Positions 4,864-47,764 of a stretch of 64,000 nucleotides of DNA are shown piece after piece (position 1 is the first letter of the stretch; the number at the start of each line of letters is the position of its first letter). This DNA comes from Bacteroidales bacterium (GTDB taxonomy: Bacteria; Bacteroidota; Bacteroidia; Bacteroidales; UBA932). The stretch is from assembly GCA_017630155.1 (NCBI GenBank), contig JAGBVU010000031.1, positions 124,001-188,000 on the forward strand. Reading direction: 5' to 3'. The notes under the pieces were generated by a model. It was not told the origin of the DNA and did no database searches. It saw nothing but the letters and a program-made list of their open reading frames with translations. The translations under genes and the position numbers were made by a program.

Positions 4864-5472
4864 TTACCAGCGGTAGACTATGTTGACGGCACCTTTGTAG
4901 GCGGGGAGCCATTCACCGGAGTGGTTCCAGCCGACATACATCGAGCCGTCTGAGGTGCGGTGACCTTCGTATGCGGAGATGGAGTAGCCCAGTCCCCAGG
5001 CAATGTCGATAGCCCATCTTTTTGAGAAGCAGAACTGGTAGCCAAAAGTGGCACCCATCATTATATTTGTCCCCACCTGGTAACTGTCGGGATATGTTCC
5101 CCAGTATGCAGGTACCAGCCCTTTGCTCAGACGCCACATGGCCCATCCGACATTTGGACCCATATAAAATCCACGGAATGTCTCTGCAGGGTACCAGTGT
5201 GCCTCTACGAATGTGGCTCCAAGATTAAGAGGGGTCTTTGTTCCCGGAACACCATAGGGATAGAATATACCCATTCCCTCTAATTGAACTGAGAATTCAT
5301 CATGCACCTTCACTTCTATGGCTGGATTGACCACACCCAAAAGTGCCGCTGCATTGAGCTTTACTGCGATTTTCTGTTCAGGATCAATCTTCCTGGAGTC
5401 ATTTTGTCCGTATGCTGTGCCGCAAAATAGCATTGCGGTAGCCAAAAATATAATAAAACGTCTCATAACCAT
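4864..5472 (-). CDS. DUF3575-like outer-membrane protein
   Basis: 202 residues with an N-terminal signal peptide ending around TAYG/Q. The rest alternates aromatic and polar residues as in a small beta-barrel and ends in Trp (VNIVYRW), as outer-membrane proteins often end in an aromatic residue. Patterns such as KLNAAALLGVVNPAIEV and GFYMGPNVGW recall the Bacteroidota DUF3575 family, whose role is unknown. The ATG overlaps the TAA of the VanZ-like gene (TAATG), so translation is probably coupled. An in-frame ATG two codons later (5466) is an alternative start. Confidence 0.7.
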   Translation of the reverse strand: MVMRRFIIFLATAMLFCGTAYGQNDSRKIDPEQKIAVKLNAAALLGVVNPAIEVKVHDEFSVQLEGMGIFYPYGVPGTKTPLNLGATFVEAHWYPAETFRGFYMGPNVGWAMWRLSKGLVPAYWGTYPDSYQVGTNIMMGATFGYQFCFSKRWAIDIAWGLGYSISAYEGHRTSDGSMYVGWNHSGEWLPAYKGAVNIVYRW

Positions 5473-6586: not shown

Positions 6587-8281
6587 TTATTCATTTAGCA
6601 GTTCTGAAGCCCTCTTCATGGCAGGTGTGATATGAGGAAGGATGTTCTCTTCACCGATTTCCTGGGCAAATCCAGATTTGCGGAGTGTAGCGTGAACTTT
6701 CTCTGTTACACCTGAAAGGACCATCTGTATACCCTCTTTTTTAGAACGGAGGTAGAGGTTACGCAAGTTGTTGAGACCTGTAGAGTCCATAAATGGAACC
6801 CTTCTCATACGGATAACCCTCACTTTAAGCTTTTCACCTCTGAATCTGTCAAACTCATCGATTTTGGATGCCAGACCGAAGAAGAAAGGACCGTCAATCT
6901 CATATACCTCCACACCCTCAGGAATATCAAGATATTGGGTGTCGGTAGGGTTGATTACCTCTATATTCTCAGTAGCGGCGATAGGATCCTTGCCCATAAC
7001 ATTGATATTGGTGGTCTCGCTAACACGTTTGACAAATAGGATTACTGCCAACAGCATACCCACCTCAATAGCTACAGTAAGGTCGATAATTACAGTGAGG
7101 AAGAAGGTGATCAGGAGCACTGCCACATCGGTCTTCTCACCCTTTAGAAGATATTTGAATGTTCTCCACTCAGACATATTGTATGCTACCATCACCAGGA
7201 TAGCTGCAAGACAAGAGAGTGGAATGTATACTGCGTAAGGCAACAGGAAGAGGAATATGATCAATAACACCACAGCATGGACAATACCTGCGATAGGGGT
7301 GCGTCCTCCGTTGTTGATGTTTGCCATAGTTCTGGCCAATGCACCGGTTGCAGGGATACCTCCGAAGAATGGGGTTACGATGTTGGCAACACCCTGTCCG
7401 ATAAGTTCGGTGTTGGAGTCGTGCTTTTTACCGGTCACACCATCTGCCACCATAGCTGCCATCAAAGACTCGATGGCGCACAAAAGTGCAATGGTAATCG
7501 CTGGTGAGAAGAGCTCTTTTACTGCATCGATCGAGAGTTCAGGAAGTGATGGTTTGGGGAATGTTAACCCACCTGCAAGCTCAGGGAATTTGTCCCCAAT
7601 GGTAAGGAATGTGATGCCGTCAATTTTGGTTGCCACCACTGAGGCAATAATACCGATGATAATGGCAATCAGAGATCCGGGAACCTTCTTGGTAACCTTG
7701 GGCCAGAAGATGCACACTAGAAGGCAGACAAGACCTAAAAGTGTCTCTGACAATGAAATGGTGCCGAAATTCTTGAAATAGCAACCCCATTGTGCCAAGA
7801 ATCCTGATGGGACACTCTCAATCTGAAGGCCGAAGAAGTCCTTAATCTGAGTCGAGAAGATAACCACAGCGATACCTGAAGTGAATCCGACGATGATAGG
7901 ATAGGGGATAAACTTGATAAGGGTTCCGAGTTTGAAAACACCCATCAGCACAAGCATTATACCGGCCATTGCTGTGGCAATGATAAGTCCGTCCATACCA
8001 AATTTGGTGACAATACCGTAAATGATTACGATAAACGCACCTGTAGGACCACCGATAAGCGAGTAAGTTCCACCGAGGAACGACATCAGAAAGCCCGCAA
8101 CTATCGCAGTGATGAGGCCTTGCTGAGGTGAAACACCTGATGAGATACCAAATGCAATTGCGAGGGGCAATGCAATAATTCCGACAATTACTCCGGCAAT
8201 CAAATCTGCACGGAAGTCATCCATAGTGTACTTTCCTTTACGGAAAAGATCAAAAATTTTAGGTCTAAATGAGAAACGCAT
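6587..8281 (-). CDS. SulP-family anion transporter with STAS domain
   Basis: 564 residues from the ATG at 8281; a GTG directly before it is less likely. The first 430 residues are hydrophobic with 12-14 membrane segments. They include the SulP signature region ([23 protein letters not shown], then GPTGAF) and the [18 protein letters not shown] loop. Residues of about 445-560 form a STAS domain with MDSTGLNNL. SulP proteins carry sulfate, bicarbonate or dicarboxylates; the substrate here cannot be told. It heads the run SulP, fsa, VanZ-like, DUF3575-like. Confidence 0.9.
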
Positions 8282-23828: not shown

Positions 23829-25967
<2,139 letters not shown>

Positions 25968-26111: not shown

Positions 26112-27359
26112 ATGAAAGATTCAATTGTTATCCTGACCGGTGGCGGTCCAGCTCCCGGAATCAACACAGTAGTTGGTACTATTGCCAAGACTTTCCTTGA
26201 CAAAGGTTACAGAGTAATCGGTCTTCATGGTGGATACTCAGCTATCTTCACCAAAGAGCCAAAATGCACAGAATTCGACTTTTTCCTAGCAGATTCAATC
26301 TTCAATCGTGGTGGTTCTTTCTTGAGAATGAGCCGTTACAAACCAACCCAGGAAGATTTCGAGAACAACTTCAACGAGACATTCTTCAAAGAGAACAATA
26401 TCAAACTTCTTGTGACCGTAGGTGGTGACGATACAGCTTCTACAGCAAACCGTATTGCCAAATTCCTCAAGAGCAAGAACTACCCTATCCAGAATATCCA
26501 CGTTCCAAAAACTATCGACAACGACCTTCCTCTTCCAAACAATGAGCCTACATTCGGTTACAACTCTGCAAAATCAGAGGGTACCAGAGTGGCTACCACA
26601 GTTTACGAGGATGCACGTACCAGCGGTACCTGGTATCTTATCTCTGCAATGGGCCGTTCAGCCGGTCACCTTGCTATGGGTATCGCAGCTTCTTGCCACT
26701 ATCCTATGGTAGTTATCCCTGAGATGTTCAACAAATCTGAGGTTTCTATCGAGAAGATTGTAAATCTTGCCATCTCATCTATCGTCAAGAGGATGATTAT
26801 GGGTGTATGCTACGGTGGTGTAATGATCTCAGAGGGTGTGTTCCACATCCTTAGCGATGAGGACTTGAAGAATTCAGGTGTTACATTCTCATTCGATGCA
26901 CACGGTCACCCAGAGCTTGGTAAAGTTTCTAAAGCTCAGGTATTCAATACTGTACTCGAGAACAAAATGAAAGCTCTTGGCCTTAAAGTGAAGACCCGTC
27001 CAGTAGAGATCGGTTATGATGTAAGATGCCAAACCCCTGTTGCTTACGACTTGACATACTGCTCACAGCTTGCTTACGGTGTATGGAAACTTTTCCACGC
27101 AGGTGAGACCGGCTGTATGGTATACGTAAACGGCAAAGGTGTAGCTTCTCCTCTATACTTGACTGACCTTCAGGATCCTACCACTGGTAAGATTCCACCA
27201 AGGCTCGTTAACATCGATAGTGAAGAGGTACAGAACGTATTCAAATACGAACTTCACTACATCCGTCCAGAGGATTACGAGGCTGCCAAGAAATATCTTG
27301 CAAACCCTGAGGAGTACGACTTCTACAAAATCCTTAACTGGGAGTATCCACAAGAGTAA
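26112..27359 (+). CDS. 6-phosphofructokinase, with PPi-type signature residues
   Basis: 415 residues. It phosphorylates fructose-6-phosphate in glycolysis. The N-terminal nucleotide-binding loop is LTGGGPAPGINTV. The motifs VGGDD (Asp106-Asp107) and PKTIDND (132-138, Lys133) carry the residue pair known to distinguish PPi-dependent enzymes: Asp instead of Gly after GGD, and Lys in the PKTIDND motif. The phosphoryl donor is therefore probably pyrophosphate, which makes the step reversible. Codon usage suggests high expression. It is monocistronic, with its own promoter and terminator. Confidence 0.88.
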   Translation: MKDSIVILTGGGPAPGINTVVGTIAKTFLDKGYRVIGLHGGYSAIFTKEPKCTEFDFFLADSIFNRGGSFLRMSRYKPTQEDFENNFNETFFKENNIKLLVTVGGDDTASTANRIAKFLKSKNYPIQNIHVPKTIDNDLPLPNNEPTFGYNSAKSEGTRVATTVYEDARTSGTWYLISAMGRSAGHLAMGIAASCHYPMVVIPEMFNKSEVSIEKIVNLAISSIVKRMIMGVCYGGVMISEGVFHILSDEDLKNSGVTFSFDAHGHPELGKVSKAQVFNTVLENKMKALGLKVKTRPVEIGYDVRCQTPVAYDLTYCSQLAYGVWKLFHAGETGCMVYVNGKGVASPLYLTDLQDPTTGKIPPRLVNIDSEEVQNVFKYELHYIRPEDYEAAKKYLANPEEYDFYKILNWEYPQE

Positions 27360-27445: not shown

Positions 27446-27764
27446 CTTGTCTTCAGTGAGGTCGACTATGTTTCAAAAATCCATTCTCTGGGGGGTGGCT
27501 TGAGTTTGACAGTCAGACTCTTATTTCATATCGGGCTCTCCCGACATATTCTGTGTGGACTACTACCAAATGTCTGTGTGCCGGGCCCCCCGCTCCCCGC
27601 GTCGTCGGGTGGATTACCATCCTTGTTTTTCGGTCTTTCTGTCAGATATCCTTAAGTGTCTTGTCTATCTGGTCTACCGGCGGGCTGTTAGTTAGTTAGT
27701 AGGCAGTCTCTTGCTGTGGTAGCAACCCTTCTTATGATGATGTGATATGTGGTGGGACTCTCAT
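27446..27764. other. Non-coding stretch before palindromic element A
   Basis: About 320 bases without a supported gene. It holds a C-rich run (GGGCCCCCCGCTCCCC at 27582-27597) and a small stem TCGGG/CCCGA near 27538. Nothing further could be recognised. It may be decayed repeat DNA. Confidence 0.3.
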
Positions 27765-27903
27765 GCAAATAACCTTTTCGAGGATGAGGCCTAGATGGTG
27801 TTCTGGTAGGGGGTAATTGAAAAGGTTCACCGAATTTGGTGAACCCTTTCATCAATGTGCCTCAGAAAGCTCTCTGGAGTGGTTTTCTGAAAAGATTATT
27901 TGC
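27765..27903. repeat. Palindromic element, copy A (139 bp)
   Basis: Runs from GCAAATAACC to ATTATTTGC, an imperfect inverted repeat. The central hairpin is TGAAAAGGTTCACC / GGTGAACCCTTTCA (13 of 14 pairs, 6-base loop). A copy of the same length lies at 30444-30582 in the same orientation, and about 105 of 139 positions match by hand. Its right end covers the last codons and stop of the GH13 gene, which is read from the opposite strand. It is probably a REP/BIME-like substrate of the RAYT gene. Confidence 0.8.
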
Positions 27904-29332
27904 AGGAGCCGCTAACGATACTTGTCAGGTTGACTATATTGCCGTTGTACGCCCCGACAGATACAGTTATCTGGCTTGCACCTCCGTTTATCCCCAGGTA
28001 ATCGAATGCCTCCTTTGGAATATTGATCCTGATCTGAGCATCCCATTGGGAAAAGTTTGCTGTGACCAGGTAAATTTCCTTGCCGTCCGATCTTAAGAAA
28101 GCGAAGTGATAACGGGGATCAAAATGACCAGATTGAGGATTTACATACATTAGATCGAAAGTCTTGCCGATGCGGAAGGAGTCTTTTTTCATGGCCATCT
28201 TCATCAGCTCACGATAGATGGAGAGTATTTGTTTCTCATTATCTATCAAATCTTTATAGACATCACCTGCGTCACAACCTTCAAGAAATCGTCTCACTGA
28301 AGAGAGACTCCAGAAGTCATATATGGTGGTGCGTCCGTCCACTCCACTGTACCCCTCTGTCTCCATTCCCTGTTCTCCAAGTTCCTGACCAAAATATATC
28401 ATGAAAGGTGCGGTATTGAAAAAGAGTGATACATAAAGCATGGCGAGTGATCTCTGTGCATTGCCGGCAAAAAAGTTTGAGGCAACCCTCTGCTCATCGT
28501 GATTCTCCAGGAAGTTCAGCATCTTGGGCTGGAAGTCACCCAGACCCTGCCATACGGATGTAAGTGAAGAGGCCCAGGTGTGACCGTCAGATATTGCTCT
28601 GAGTGTATCGTAAAATCCAGACTTGTCATAAAGGTAATCAAACCCTCCCCTTGTGATGTACGGATGGTAGTTGTGCGGCTGATAGATCTCTGCCACGAAT
28701 ATGATTCCTGGATAGGCTTCTTTCAATTGGGGGATACACCATTCCCAAAAATCGACTGTTACCAACTCCACCATATCACATCTGAATCCATCTACCCCTT
28801 TTGCTGCCCAAAACATAAGGATATCCTTCATTTTGGTCCAAGTGTCACGGGATCCGTAATTCAATTTTACAGTGTCTGTCCAGTCCCCGTCGTGAATGCG
28901 TCCCGGGTAGAAATTTTCATCACCGAAAGGGGCGACTGTTGAATTGTATTCCCTTGACAAGTGATTTGGTATGAAGTCTATAATTACCTTAAGACCAGCT
29001 TTATGTGTGCGTGCAACAAGTGATTCGAATTCCTTCATCCTCTTGGATGTGACCTTCGACATATATGGGTTCACATCATAGTAATCCTTGATGGCGTAAG
29101 GTGATCCGGCTTTCCCTTTTGCAGTGGTATCTCCGTCAGTAGCGTGACGGATTATCCCTGTGTACCATACGTGTGTAACAGCCAATTCTTTAAGTTCCTT
29201 AAGGACTTTGGCTGTAATGTCACCAAATTTTCCAGATCCATTTTCAGCAAGTGTTCCATTGAAAACACATTCGGGGTTTCTGTTACCGAAAAGTCTTGGC
29301 AACATCTGATAAATTATGAATTTTTCGTGCAT
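27896..29332 (-). CDS. Cytoplasmic GH13 alpha-amylase-family enzyme
   Basis: 478 residues, no signal peptide. The four GH13 regions are intact: DFIPNH (119-124), GFRCDMVE (182-189, nucleophile Asp186), VAEIYQ (acid/base Glu215) and FLENHD (274-279, Asp279). The family cleaves or rearranges alpha-glucans such as glycogen or imported maltodextrin. The last codons (Ser-Cys-Lys-stop) lie inside palindromic element A. The gene starts 57 bases after the stop of the RAYT gene, on the same strand. Confidence 0.9.
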   Translation of the reverse strand: MHEKFIIYQMLPRLFGNRNPECVFNGTLAENGSGKFGDITAKVLKELKELAVTHVWYTGIIRHATDGDTTAKGKAGSPYAIKDYYDVNPYMSKVTSKRMKEFESLVARTHKAGLKVIIDFIPNHLSREYNSTVAPFGDENFYPGRIHDGDWTDTVKLNYGSRDTWTKMKDILMFWAAKGVDGFRCDMVELVTVDFWEWCIPQLKEAYPGIIFVAEIYQPHNYHPYITRGGFDYLYDKSGFYDTLRAISDGHTWASSLTSVWQGLGDFQPKMLNFLENHDEQRVASNFFAGNAQRSLAMLYVSLFFNTAPFMIYFGQELGEQGMETEGYSGVDGRTTIYDFWSLSSVRRFLEGCDAGDVYKDLIDNEKQILSIYRELMKMAMKKDSFRIGKTFDLMYVNPQSGHFDPRYHFAFLRSDGKEIYLVTANFSQWDAQIRINIPKEAFDYLGINGGASQITVSVGAYNGNIVNLTSIVSGSCK

Positions 29333-29389
29333 AATTCCAGTATTATCTTAATGGCAAAAATAATACTAAAACCCCTTTGCTGCAATATC

Positions 29390-30355
29390 TCACATCAGAC
29401 TTTTTACCTCTTCCGGGATAAGTCCACACACTCTGGCCACCTGTTTTATAGAACTGTGATATCTGCTTTTCAGTATTCTGGCCAGACGAAGACGTTGCTC
29501 CACATTAAGCATACGGATGGTATTTACTTTAAAGACATCTTTACATATTTCATTTCTGTACTGACGCATCTCCTGAATGGGAATAGACAGCCTGGAGATG
29601 GCTCCACCTTTTGACTCAATATCTTCCTCCCGTGATGTGTATATGAAATAGTTGAACCCTTTCGGACTCTTGAATAGTTTTTCCACCAATCTGTACTCTA
29701 CATACTCTCCAGGAAAGATGGTGTTGCCTATTATTTTTATGTTGCTGATATCTAATGTTATATGTACTTTCAGTAGCTCTCTTTTTTTATGGATGGAGAG
29801 ATCTGTTGGCTGTGTATGGACTTCATCGATACAGTGGACTGGTGATGTCCAGTACCCTTTACTTCTGAAATATAACGCTCCACTGGACCAAGGGTAGTCA
29901 ATATGGGTATACCTTAATCCTGCTGCTGGTGGATTTTTTATAGTATAACATATGGCATTTTTCAGATACCAGTCATTGTCTATTGTTTGATAATGAATTG
30001 GGATATTTGCCAGTTTCCTGTATTCGCCGTGTCTGCTGGATATATGCATGGATGTACGTCTTATGTATTCGTGCATAAATCTGTTGCATGCATCAAGTTC
30101 TCCATACAGAATGAAGTGGATATGGGTATCCATCAGACAAAATGCCAGGATAAGTATGTCGTAGTTGTGAATGACGACATATATCCTGTTCATTCCTGCA
30201 ATGAAATCTTCGTCGTCGTCAAAGATTCTGTCAATGGCATTTCCGTCGGTAGTGAAGTGCCAGCATTTTTTGACAGTTATCTTTTGCCCTTTTTGAAATG
30301 GGGTATTCAATCCCAGGTCCGATTCGGCCTGTATGAGCAGGTCAGTGTATTTCAT
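29390..30355 (-). CDS. REP-associated tyrosine transposase (RAYT), Y1/IS200-like
   Basis: 321 residues from ATG 30355; a TTG three codons earlier is weaker. This is a single-strand-DNA nuclease/transposase of the Y1 type. The metal-binding HUH motif is His78-Ile-His80 in LMDTHIHFILYG. The probable catalytic tyrosine is Tyr137 in YTIKNPPAAG, the RAYT-type Y-I-x-x-N-P-x-A-G motif. The C-terminal 50 residues (RLARILKSRYHSSIKQVARVCG) look like a helix-turn-helix. RAYTs are single-copy domesticated relatives of IS200 that handle palindromic REP elements. Element B lies 88 bases upstream and element A 1.5 kb downstream, behind the amylase gene. It has its own promoter at 30393-30423. Confidence 0.85.
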   Translation of the reverse strand: MKYTDLLIQAESDLGLNTPFQKGQKITVKKCWHFTTDGNAIDRIFDDDEDFIAGMNRIYVVIHNYDILILAFCLMDTHIHFILYGELDACNRFMHEYIRRTSMHISSRHGEYRKLANIPIHYQTIDNDWYLKNAICYTIKNPPAAGLRYTHIDYPWSSGALYFRSKGYWTSPVHCIDEVHTQPTDLSIHKKRELLKVHITLDISNIKIIGNTIFPGEYVEYRLVEKLFKSPKGFNYFIYTSREEDIESKGGAISRLSIPIQEMRQYRNEICKDVFKVNTIRMLNVEQRLRLARILKSRYHSSIKQVARVCGLIPEEVKSLM

Positions 30356-30392
30356 CAACTTCAATCTCGCGCCTCCAGTGGCTGCTCAAGGA

Positions 30393-30423
30393 CAAAATTA
30401 GTGCTCTGAATCTGAATATCAAA
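30393..30423 (-). promoter_or_regulatory. Promoter of the RAYT gene
   Basis: On the minus strand: TTTG (plus-strand CAAA, 30420-30423), 19 bases, then TAATTTTG (plus-strand CAAAATTA, 30393-30400). This is an exact match to the Bacteroidota TTTG-N19-TAnnTTTG pattern, 38 bases before the ATG at 30355. Confidence 0.75.
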
Positions 30424-30443
30424 GAGATATTTCAGAAATTGCT

Positions 30444-30582
30444 GCAAATAACCTTTTCGGAGAGCTGGCCCAGAATGTGTTCTGGGAGGGGGGTGATGAA
30501 AAGGTTCGTAAATTTTGGCGAACCTTTTCATTAATGTCCCCCAGATGGGCTTCCGGAAGGGTTTTCCAAAAAGGTTATTTGC
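30444..30582. repeat. Palindromic element, copy B (139 bp)
   Basis: Outer arms: the left end GCAAATAACCTTTTCGGA pairs with the right end of the element with 17 of 18 matches. The central hairpin has a perfect 12-bp stem TGAAAAGGTTCG / CGAACCTTTTCA with a 10-base loop. The left side arm has CCCAGA/TCTGGG, and the right side arm contains the palindrome CTTCCGGAAG. Together these form a cloverleaf-like fold. Both copies are followed by AGGAG. It lies upstream of the RAYT promoter. Confidence 0.8.
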
Positions 30583-30610
30583 AGGAGAGTGAGAGCAGAC
30601 AGTGAGGACC

Positions 30611-30743: not shown

Positions 30744-31655
30744 CTACAGCGAACAGAAGAGAGCTACCATAAATGGTACAGAGAAGTCTACTAGGAAGCC
30801 GTGGTAGACGGAGATTACAGCCAGGTGGTCGCCACACGATTGGCGGATGACTGGGAGGGTGCTGTCGGCAGTAGTGGCACCGCCTGCAGCGATAGGTGCG
30901 AGGGGACCGGCAATTCTGGGGAGGAACGGTGCCGATATCAAGGTGATTATCTCACGGATGACATTCGCCAAAAGGGCAATGGTCCCGAGCTCCACCCCTT
31001 TGCTTTCGGCGATGAGGACACTTGACAAAGAGTAGTAACCTTGTCCAGAACCGACTGCCAGAAGTTCTGTTAGTGCATATGGCAAAACCATAGAGAGTAG
31101 AGTCACAGCCACTAATGTCCCTCCGATTGTAAAAAGAGGAAGGAGCAACACTTTCCTGTCGTATTGTCTTAAGTTGTTGAAAATATTCTGGTTATGGCCA
31201 ATGCTTATCCCGATAAAAAATATCAGTATGCAAAGTGTCCAGAAGGAGATCCTGTCCGGGATGGGAAGCTTGTCAAGCAATCCAAAATAGCCTGTCAGAA
31301 CTCCTGCTGCGAAAAAACCTAGGATGATAAAGCTCCCTTTAAGTGGCTCCAGAAGTGAAATTTGTTGGCCGGAAGAGTCGCGTGGTGCTTCATATTTGAG
31401 ACGGCACCAGCGTGCAAGAATGGCGGCTGCCAGACAACTACCAGCTGTGGCTGTAATGGCTGTGACCATTGCTGTAAGACCCAGGGTGGGGAGTGCGGCT
31501 ACTATATCCGGATTGCCCCCCATATCGAGACCGAGGAAGAACAGAAGCAACCATACGATGCAGCCCACCAAACGATCTATCCATCCGAGGGTAAGGCGGC
31601 GCAAAAGGATACCTGCACCAATCCCCGAAAGCATCATACCGATAACGGTAAACAT
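30744..31655 (-). CDS. LysO-family (lysine) exporter
   Basis: 303 residues, nearly all hydrophobic with about eight to ten membrane segments. The patterns LFFLGLDMGGN, then IFFIGISIGHNQNIF, GSGQGYYSLSSVLIAESKG and GGATTADSTLPVI match the LysO/YbjE (Lys_export) family, in which E. coli LysO of 299 residues exports lysine. The acidic and polar loops match this family; substrate specificity is inferred. It follows a solute-binding lipoprotein gene by 20 bases on the same strand, so the two are probably one operon. Confidence 0.85.
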   Translation of the reverse strand: MFTVIGMMLSGIGAGILLRRLTLGWIDRLVGCIVWLLLFFLGLDMGGNPDIVAALPTLGLTAMVTAITATAGSCLAAAILARWCRLKYEAPRDSSGQQISLLEPLKGSFIILGFFAAGVLTGYFGLLDKLPIPDRISFWTLCILIFFIGISIGHNQNIFNNLRQYDRKVLLLPLFTIGGTLVAVTLLSMVLPYALTELLAVGSGQGYYSLSSVLIAESKGVELGTIALLANVIREIITLISAPFLPRIAGPLAPIAAGGATTADSTLPVIRQSCGDHLAVISVYHGFLVDFSVPFMVALFCSL

Positions 31656-45361: not shown

Positions 45362-47764
45362 ATGAAACTTAAAACATTAGCGATTACCATTGGGGCTATG
45401 CTCCTGGCTTTCAACCTTTCGGCGCAGAGTGCAGCGGAACTGCAGATGGCTAAAAAGATGGCGAAAGCCCAAGGCTACAGCGATGCAGAGATTAATGCCC
45501 TAATCAACCAGCAGATGGGACTAACCGGAGGAAAGGATGGCGTGAAAACTGTAGATCCTACCAAAAAGATTACCCGTACCCCTGCTGAGACTATGACCGA
45601 GGAGCAGTTTACCAAATATCAGGACTCTGTATGGGTAGATGCTCCCAAGGAGATGACATTGGTAGAGAAACTGGCCAAGCTTGAGGAGTATGAGAAGAAA
45701 GAGGAGTCTGACAAGGTTTACGGACACGACATATTCGAATCCCCATATCTTAGCTTTATGCCAAGTTACAACATCCCCACCCCTGCAAACTACAAACTTG
45801 CAGCCGGTGATGAGGTGGTAATTGATTTGTGGGGTGCAGTATATCAGTCTCTCACTCAGGAGATATCACCTGAAGGGAGCATCATCGTTCCGGAGTTGGG
45901 CCCTGTATATCTTATCGGCCAGACCATAGAGCAGGCAGAGAAGACACTCAAGGTGGCACTCGGCAAGATCTTCTCAGGGATTAACAGCGAAGAGCCTACC
46001 ACTTTCTTCCGTATATCTCTCGGCCAGATCCGCTCGTTTGCCATCAACGTCGTGGGTGATGTGAAGAAACCGGGAACATATACACTTCCATCCCTTTCGA
46101 CAGTGTCATCTGCACTTTATCTTGCAGGTGGTCCAAGCAAGACAGGTTCAGTACGTGATATCCGCATCTACCGCAACAATAAACTTGTCGAGAAATTTGA
46201 CCTCTACAAATTTATGCTTGACGGCAACTTCAAGACCAACCTCAGACTTGAGGACAACGACCTGATTAAAGTATCACCATATGTCAATCTTGTAAAAGTA
46301 GACGGCAATGTCAAGCGCCCTATGACCTATGAGATGGTTGATGGTGAGACAGTATCAAAACTTATCGAATATGCAGGTGGGTTTGCAGGTGATGCAAATC
46401 AGGAGAGGATCCACATCACACGCCAAAAAGGTGTTAGAAGCGAGAGCTTCGATGTGACAAGAAAGGATTTTGCATCATTCCAGCTGATGGATGGTGACTC
46501 GATCACAGTTTCGACCAACATAGTGGAGAACAGAAACAGGGTAGTGATAGAGGGTGCTGTATGGCATCAGGGTTCTTATGCTATCTCTGATACACTCAAT
46601 ACACTCCAGCAACTCATCGCTGCAGCTGGTGGCGTGAAAGATGATGTATATAAAGAGCGAGGTTATATCCAGAGATTCAACGAGCGTCGCGATACCATTG
46701 CCCTCCACTTCAATGTGGACAATGTCCTTAACGGCACTGAAGAGGTGATGCTTATGCCTGATGACTCTATCCGCATCTTTGCGCACAGGGAGTTTGAGAA
46801 GAGATCATTTGTGTACACATTTGGAGAGGTTAACAAGCCTGATACTTTTGTATTCAGACCAGGTATGACACTTGGCGATATTATTCTCCTCTCTGACGGC
46901 TTCACACTTGGTGCTGCCAAATCAAATGTGGATGTGGCCCGCAGAAACAGTGAAAATGCCAAAGCAGCAGGCGATACCATCGCCACAGTGTTCAATTTCA
47001 ACCTGGAGGATAATCCTCAGGATCTCAATTTTGAACTTTCACCATTTGATATAGTCTTCGTAAGGGTACTTCCTAACTACAAACAGCAGCAGACCATCAC
47101 AGTAGAGGGACAAGTCAACTTCCCTGGTAAGTATGTGGTGGAGAAAAGTGTTGTAAGGATATCTGACGTTATAAAGAAAGCCGGTGGGGTAAATAAAGAT
47201 GCATACGTCAGAGGTGCTACAGTGGAGAGAAAACTTACCGATGCAGAGTATGAGAGGGCTGTAGCAGCTAGAGAGATGGCGCTCCGTCAGATAGATGCAG
47301 ATCCTGAACTCATACCTGAGATCAATCGTGAAGAGAGATACAAAGTGGGTATCGACCTTCAGGCAGCATTGGACAATCCAGGCTCATTTGCTGATGTAGT
47401 GCTTCAGGAGGATGATATTGTCTCGATCCCTAAGATGAACAATACTGTTAAGATATCGGGTGGTGTCCTCTATACCAACGTGGTAACCTATGATCCATCA
47501 CTCAAACCAAAAGATTATATAGATATGGCGGGTGGCTACACCAAAGGCTCCATCAGGAAAAATACCTATATAGTATATATGAACGGAAAAGTATCTAAAA
47601 AAGGTACATCCAATTATAAAATCGAGCCTGGCTGTGAGATCATAGTCCCTGTGAAGGATGCGGAACAAATAAGAAGGGTAACTGCAGCCGAAATTGTATC
47701 TATTGCTACATCTACAGCTTCTCTTGGTGCAATGGTTATAAGTATTTTTAACTCTTTAAAATAA
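45362..47764 (+). CDS. Wza-like polysaccharide export protein with SLBB domains
   Basis: 800 residues. A signal peptide (1-20, cut after LSA/Q) is followed by a helical segment (MAKKMAKAQGYSDAEINALINQQMG). Next is a Poly_export domain (residues of about 135-230, LAAGDEVVIDLWG) and then several SLBB repeats (such as VVGDVKKPGTYTLPSLSTVSSALYLAGGPSKTGSVRDIRIYRN, VEGQVNFPGKYVVEKSVVRISDVIKKAGGVN). The C-terminus ends in a hydrophobic helix (AEIVSIATSTASLGAMVISIF). It should form the outer-membrane channel for the capsule or exopolysaccharide, and it works with the Wzz-like protein at 47774. Confidence 0.92.
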   Translation: MKLKTLAITIGAMLLAFNLSAQSAAELQMAKKMAKAQGYSDAEINALINQQMGLTGGKDGVKTVDPTKKITRTPAETMTEEQFTKYQDSVWVDAPKEMTLVEKLAKLEEYEKKEESDKVYGHDIFESPYLSFMPSYNIPTPANYKLAAGDEVVIDLWGAVYQSLTQEISPEGSIIVPELGPVYLIGQTIEQAEKTLKVALGKIFSGINSEEPTTFFRISLGQIRSFAINVVGDVKKPGTYTLPSLSTVSSALYLAGGPSKTGSVRDIRIYRNNKLVEKFDLYKFMLDGNFKTNLRLEDNDLIKVSPYVNLVKVDGNVKRPMTYEMVDGETVSKLIEYAGGFAGDANQERIHITRQKGVRSESFDVTRKDFASFQLMDGDSITVSTNIVENRNRVVIEGAVWHQGSYAISDTLNTLQQLIAAAGGVKDDVYKERGYIQRFNERRDTIALHFNVDNVLNGTEEVMLMPDDSIRIFAHREFEKRSFVYTFGEVNKPDTFVFRPGMTLGDIILLSDGFTLGAAKSNVDVARRNSENAKAAGDTIATVFNFNLEDNPQDLNFELSPFDIVFVRVLPNYKQQQTITVEGQVNFPGKYVVEKSVVRISDVIKKAGGVNKDAYVRGATVERKLTDAEYERAVAAREMALRQIDADPELIPEINREERYKVGIDLQAALDNPGSFADVVLQEDDIVSIPKMNNTVKISGGVLYTNVVTYDPSLKPKDYIDMAGGYTKGSIRKNTYIVYMNGKVSKKGTSNYKIEPGCEIIVPVKDAEQIRRVTAAEIVSIATSTASLGAMVISIFNSLK

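Follow-up and report, generated by a model that had tools for sequence, protein, structure and literature searches.

A RAYT gene between paired large palindromes in Bacteroidales: a probable REPtron-like locus with singly dispersed REPIN-like doublets

The window, by which we mean the whole analysed stretch of 64,000 nucleotides from a Bacteroidales contig, contains two copies of a palindrome of about 142 bp that bracket a gene of the GH13 alpha-amylase family and an intact gene for a REP-associated HUH/Y1 transposase (RAYT). The RAYT gene (29390-30364, minus strand) encodes 324 residues when read from a TTG and 321 when read from the ATG at 30355, and the upstream element, U (30443-30584, minus strand; covariance model R1 92.4 bits, E 2.6e-21), is found 78 bp ahead of its start. 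The GH13 gene (27896-29332, minus strand; Pfam Alpha-amylase E 1e-26), which is inverted here as set out below, has the codons of its 3' end and its stop codon inside the left, downstream element, D (27764-27905, minus strand; R1 87.0 bits, E 6.8e-20), and D is not adjacent to the RAYT gene in the window. To the left lie a phosphofructokinase gene, PFK (26112-27359, plus strand), and the DNA ligase gene ligA (23829-25961, minus strand), a conserved left neighbour that serves as synteny anchor, while a LysO-type lysine exporter gene (30744-31655, minus strand) is the right neighbour both in the window genome, G000, and in its congener G012.

U and D are spaced 2679 bp apart in direct orientation and are 77% identical over 145 nt (76% across the 142-bp core), as against a maximum of 42% among 20,000 mononucleotide shuffles, and they have the ends GCAAATAACC/GGTTATTTGC in common. 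Furthermore, when folded as single-stranded DNA both are far more stable than their dinucleotide-shuffled versions (z -5.1 to -9.5, with none of 200 as good). Each contains four copies of a short word, S, which in U are found at about 30567-30575, 30522-30530, 30498-30506 and 30450-30458, and in D at about 27888-27896, 27843-27851, 27819-27827 and 27771-27779.

The catalytic residues of the RAYT are H81-I-H83 and Y140 in TTG numbering, and the HUH histidines and the catalytic tyrosine are invariant in 34/34 aligned relatives, the clade motifs being [TN]HxH (with one GHVH) and Y[TV]x[KR]N[PA]. Profile matches are weak, both to NCBIfam REP_Tyr_transpos (E 1.8e-7, 31 bits, the cut-off being 80) and to Pfam Y1_Tnp (E 0.0043, below cut-off), and a sequence search of the PDB with the RAYT gave no match. 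An AlphaFold model (pTM 0.81) nevertheless has as its top PDB match in Foldseek 4er8, the E. coli RAYT with a REP hairpin (probability 1.00, weak E 9e-3), followed by 2a6o, the ISHp608 TnpA (probability 1.00, weak E 0.03), and the predicted fold, which has an additional C-terminal helical part, thus appears nearest to that of the E. coli RAYT in complex with REP. An earlier, sequence-only reading of this DNA had proposed two equally oriented palindromes with shared ends around the RAYT and GH13 genes, as well as the catalytic residues His78-Ile-His80 and Tyr137; all of this is borne out, the residue numbers being those counted from the ATG at 30355.

Direct repeats of some 140-160 bp flank most related RAYT genes, and their palindromic ends are often perfect. 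An almost gapless alignment of 34 such elements from 17 loci (154 columns) was scanned along all antidiagonals, and exactly four helices were found, at columns 1-21/134-154, 61-70/85-94, 14-22/61-69 and 85-93/134-142. These make up an S-S'-S-S' set, in which a word of 8-10 nt occurs four times per element, and the layout reads foot, S, a loop of about 38 nt, S', the conserved centre GGCRATTTTGCC, S, a loop of about 40 nt, S' and foot'. The feet are conserved as the AACCCGAAATTC type, or as TTTCCTGCAATTC in the genus of the window, and none of the aligned feet carries GT[AG]G. Such an arrangement allows two mutually exclusive folds, a cloverleaf or two hairpins. The cloverleaf is 86.7% paired, as opposed to 58.5% in shuffled and 34-44% in slid structures, and the two-hairpin form 89.2% as opposed to 52.8% when shuffled. 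The S word varies between lineages and yet covaries in all four places, with 327 and 226 cells in the two folds where both sides have changed, as opposed to averages of 121 and 83 upon shuffling, counts which are inflated by common ancestry, an ancestry that the slid controls retain. The sequence-only reading had also set the cloverleaf-like form apart from the usual short REP, and in this it is supported.

The surroundings of the elements vary. At one locus (L059, contig C18 of G172) a minisatellite with units of roughly 44 bp (GGCTTGTGGGGCAGGCGG...) adjoins both U and D on the same side of each, and at another (L041) a flank of 240 bp, consisting of the element and then a second, unrelated palindrome of the AGATTCTTCGCTTCGCTCAG type, is duplicated with 96% identity on either side of the RAYT gene (positions 1069-1308 and 2310-2549). 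A foot-pair at 46393-46474 of the window was considered as a half-element and set aside, since it appears to fall within a coding region.

Relatives of the RAYT were found within this one family of uncultured Bacteroidales, most of them from the rumen, and at 33 related RAYT loci, 17 of which also served to build the covariance model, the model places elements on both sides in 26, on one side in 4 and on neither in 3, the paired flanking elements being recovered by direct-repeat search as well. Among 200 genomes of the family, elements are present in 27/29 that carry the RAYT clade (membership at E <= 1e-60) and in 9/171 that do not (Fisher p 1.8e-23), and under strict filters the model finds them in 0/394 other genomes of the class. 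The proposal that the palindromes go with the RAYT is thus supported. In addition, nearly all RAYT-carrying genomes contain dispersed solo copies, which are intergenic where inspected and make up most of all elements, such that we are dealing with a low-copy family of fixed length (about 150 bp) with some 5-20 members per genome. A DNA similarity search of the 2.0-Mb window genome returned U and D as the only full-length close copies, and the idea that the element is confined to this locus was dropped, since the covariance model reveals about five confident and several weaker, diverged copies dispersed in the same genome.

The words of the solo copies tend to be those of the resident RAYT locus. 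Solo S words differ from the pair at the resident RAYT by a mean of 2.55 mismatches out of 8 and from the pairs of other genomes by 4.90 (permutation p 1e-4), and REPs and their RAYT behave in just this way. Exceptions are G129 and most solo words of G144, which differ from the tested pair; in the latter genome the same word is found in an element next to a second RAYT gene, and this may explain the exception. Genome G005 has no match to the window RAYT at 1e-5 and yet holds several elements (12 strand matches), possibly as remnants of a lost RAYT. In G034 (L131) an unrelated gene for a lipoprotein-like protein of about 430 residues, and no RAYT gene, stands between two elements that carry the resident S word (contig C117, 1672-1825 and 3841-3994), and element-bracketed genes are therefore not always linked to a RAYT. 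A different RAYT gene is found elsewhere in the window genome (L074, contig C19, 233000-246000) between two repeats of 128 bp and unrelated sequence, each with three hairpins and 95% identical to each other (oriented positions 4883-5010 and 6604-6731), which also enclose an Hsp20 gene; this block follows rpsC, and as rplP is not seen beyond it, the S10 ribosomal operon seems to be interrupted.

The history of the amylase gene can be read from gene order. Eight outgroup genomes (G087, G047, G062, G038, G019, G098, G109 and G006) have the order ligA-PFK-amylase, in which the last two genes share a strand and, in several of the genomes, are joined by overlapping stop and start codons (e.g. TAATG), and neither a RAYT match nor an element is found at this locus in any of the eight. 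This is the native order, the amylase, which gives one match per genome, is not cargo, and synteny shows that the RAYT gene together with U has come between the PFK and amylase genes of what is natively one operon. The congener G012 reads PFK-[U]-RAYT-amylase-[D]-lysO, with the amylase in its ancestral place and orientation, whereas the window genome, in which both the amylase and the RAYT gene point the other way, reads PFK-[D]-amylase-RAYT-[U]-lysO. Since PFK and lysO have not moved, and since the sequence at the lysO end is common to both congeners although it lies outside opposite elements, the simplest reading is that the segment between the palindromes was inverted in the window lineage, a call made from two MAGs of one genus as polarised by the eight outgroups, and with a crossover point that is not placeable within the diverged elements. 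Misassembly is unlikely to have produced the inverted order because U and D share only 76% identity. The inversion has taken the amylase gene out of its place downstream of PFK and left it with a stop codon that D provides. A third congener, G032, is without amylase and lysO; it has a ligA-PFK stretch with identical scores at both ends of a contig (C33, 5206-8610 and 178674-182078), which is probably a contig-end overlap.

A second difference between the congeners concerns a sister RAYT unit, RAYT2, which is orthologous in G032 and G012 (L070 and L071). In the window genome both RAYT2 flanks are contiguous (contig C19, 187577-187586), and this empty site, which lacks the RAYT segment between S' repeats, holds a single hairpin of about 80 bp. 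The hairpin is a half-element, made up of a left foot and an S-loop-S' near-identical to the left half of the G012 U, followed by the right foot of D, from which it follows that the RAYT2 difference is bounded by two S' copies. G012 and G032 look slightly more closely related to one another than either is to G000, so that the difference may be a loss in the latter or a gain in the former two. Other rearrangements near elements are anecdotes to which no statistic attaches: the match between the near-identical loci L048 and L049 (96%) breaks off at the outer edge of the U element, to within about 5 bp, and a blaI-blaR segment with an element at its end has changed place in G079 relative to G134 and G193. 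A 2.4-kb difference beside an element between the last two genomes turned out to be an unrelated ABC-permease gene.

Taken together, we consider it probable, at roughly 0.77, that the RAYT gene and its paired palindromes are a REPtron-like locus, and that the palindromes are large REPIN-like doublets which are dispersed singly and also act as points of rearrangement. The sequence-only reading had instead raised the possibility of a composite transposon, in which element, amylase, RAYT and element move as one with the amylase as passenger. In both congeners the amylase and RAYT genes do indeed lie between like elements, other loci likewise enclose an extra gene (YbaK-like, ispE/queH, BlaI/BlaR or lipoprotein), and the sister RAYT unit has an empty site, the kind of junction that was to speak for mobility, found here for RAYT2 and with loss or gain as its direction. 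The idea is however largely refuted by the eight genomes that have the amylase at its ancestral site next to PFK and there lack both RAYT and element, and it is further weakened by the facts that the amylase matches once per genome, that the window genome has no second copy of the unit, and that the G012 amylase keeps its ancestral orientation behind an inserted RAYT. Copies dissociated from the RAYT had been named as evidence against such a unit, and this is largely what is seen, most copies being solo. We therefore regard an amylase-carrying transposon as very unlikely.

It is a less remote, but still unlikely, explanation that element-RAYT-element is an insertion sequence of IS200/IS605 type, the ends of which are palindromic doublets by chance, and that the amylase was enclosed later. 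This would agree with RAYT units adjoining different genes in different species, with the orthologous G000 site that is without the RAYT2 block, and with the presence of the RAYT between PFK and amylase in the genus of the window but not in the outgroups. The same G000 site may nonetheless have lost RAYT2 or never have had it, the window genome holds no near-identical multiple copies of the unit, and most elements are solo. In addition, the supposed right end is missing, since no element is found between RAYT and amylase, where a remnant of an element foot was sought without convincing result. That the palindromes are bidirectional terminators or RNA regulatory structures and only incidentally linked to the RAYT is suggested by their intergenic position, strong hairpins and frequent occurrence just past the 3' ends of genes, but this notion is in very poor agreement with a fixed length of about 150 bp, a four-fold repeated word, lineage-specific words shared with the resident RAYT pair, and elements that strongly co-occur with the RAYT clade and are absent from the rest of the class, and we hold it to be extremely improbable.

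For the REPtron-like reading, we infer a mechanism in which the RAYT acts on the element and movement takes place via single-stranded DNA. The RAYT would recognise the foot and S hairpin on such DNA and would nick and rejoin it there, thereby spreading solo elements at low frequency. The paired palindromes, which are inverted repeats of each other, would furthermore act as recombination sites at which the intervening segment is inverted, as the synteny suggests. The genomes compared are of different species, and among them no insertion of a solo element with a clean empty site was caught. A stronger version, in which the RAYT actively uses the paired palindromes by excising or inserting RAYT segments at the S' foot and inverting between elements, so that a domesticated transposase would switch or uncouple a native operon of sugar metabolism, PFK-amylase, seems quite unlikely to us.

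RAYTs are thought of as domesticated transposases, the REPs of which move while the genes stay put. The present locus offers candidate footprints of element pairs on genomes, namely an element-bounded inversion and an empty site with a half-element, and it does so in common rumen bacteria. The four covarying copies of a lineage-specific word furthermore constitute a clean series of substrates for RAYT-repeat recognition, in a phylum, the Bacteroidetes, the repeats of which have so far been mentioned only as atypical structures.

Among known systems, the IS200/IS605 elements and the haloarchaeal PATEs (PMC3119063) are similar in having a Y1 transposase fold and palindromes near both ends, and PATE deletions between both palindromes leave a terminal-only remnant much like the half-element of the window genome; the element described here is however dispersed on its own rather than as a unit, of which there is one copy in that genome. 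RAYT genes are likewise reported as mostly single-copy in a 2021 study on how REPs are recognised (PMC8266576). The nearest description is that of TnpA-Y1 subclass 2.6, or RAYT group 5, of Bacteroidetes, for which the relevant passages of Quentin et al. 2018 (PMC6006769) report flanking "atypical secondary structures" without GT[AG]G and with copies elsewhere in the genome, characterised as weaker and found by hand, along with the motifs NH[LIV]H and YIH[QN]NP. The motifs of our clade are not an exact match to these, and the architecture found here is strong and defined, a contrast between structures that are compared by description only. The REPtrons of E. coli, Pseudomonas and Stenotrophomonas (TnpA-REP with REP, BIME or REPIN) resemble the present system in the HUH/Y1 protein and its predicted RAYT fold, in a gene flanked by palindromes that have more copies elsewhere in the genome, and in that each RAYT has its own repeat family. 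They differ in having 20-40-nt hairpins rather than elements of about 150 bp with four word copies, in the GT[AG]G of their short REPs, which the aligned feet lack, and in numbering hundreds of copies rather than about 5-20. Since the logic of REP and RAYT is present here and the short GT[AG]G REP is not, we file the locus as REPtron-like, with what is probably a new, large REP/REPIN type belonging to Bacteroidales RAYTs.
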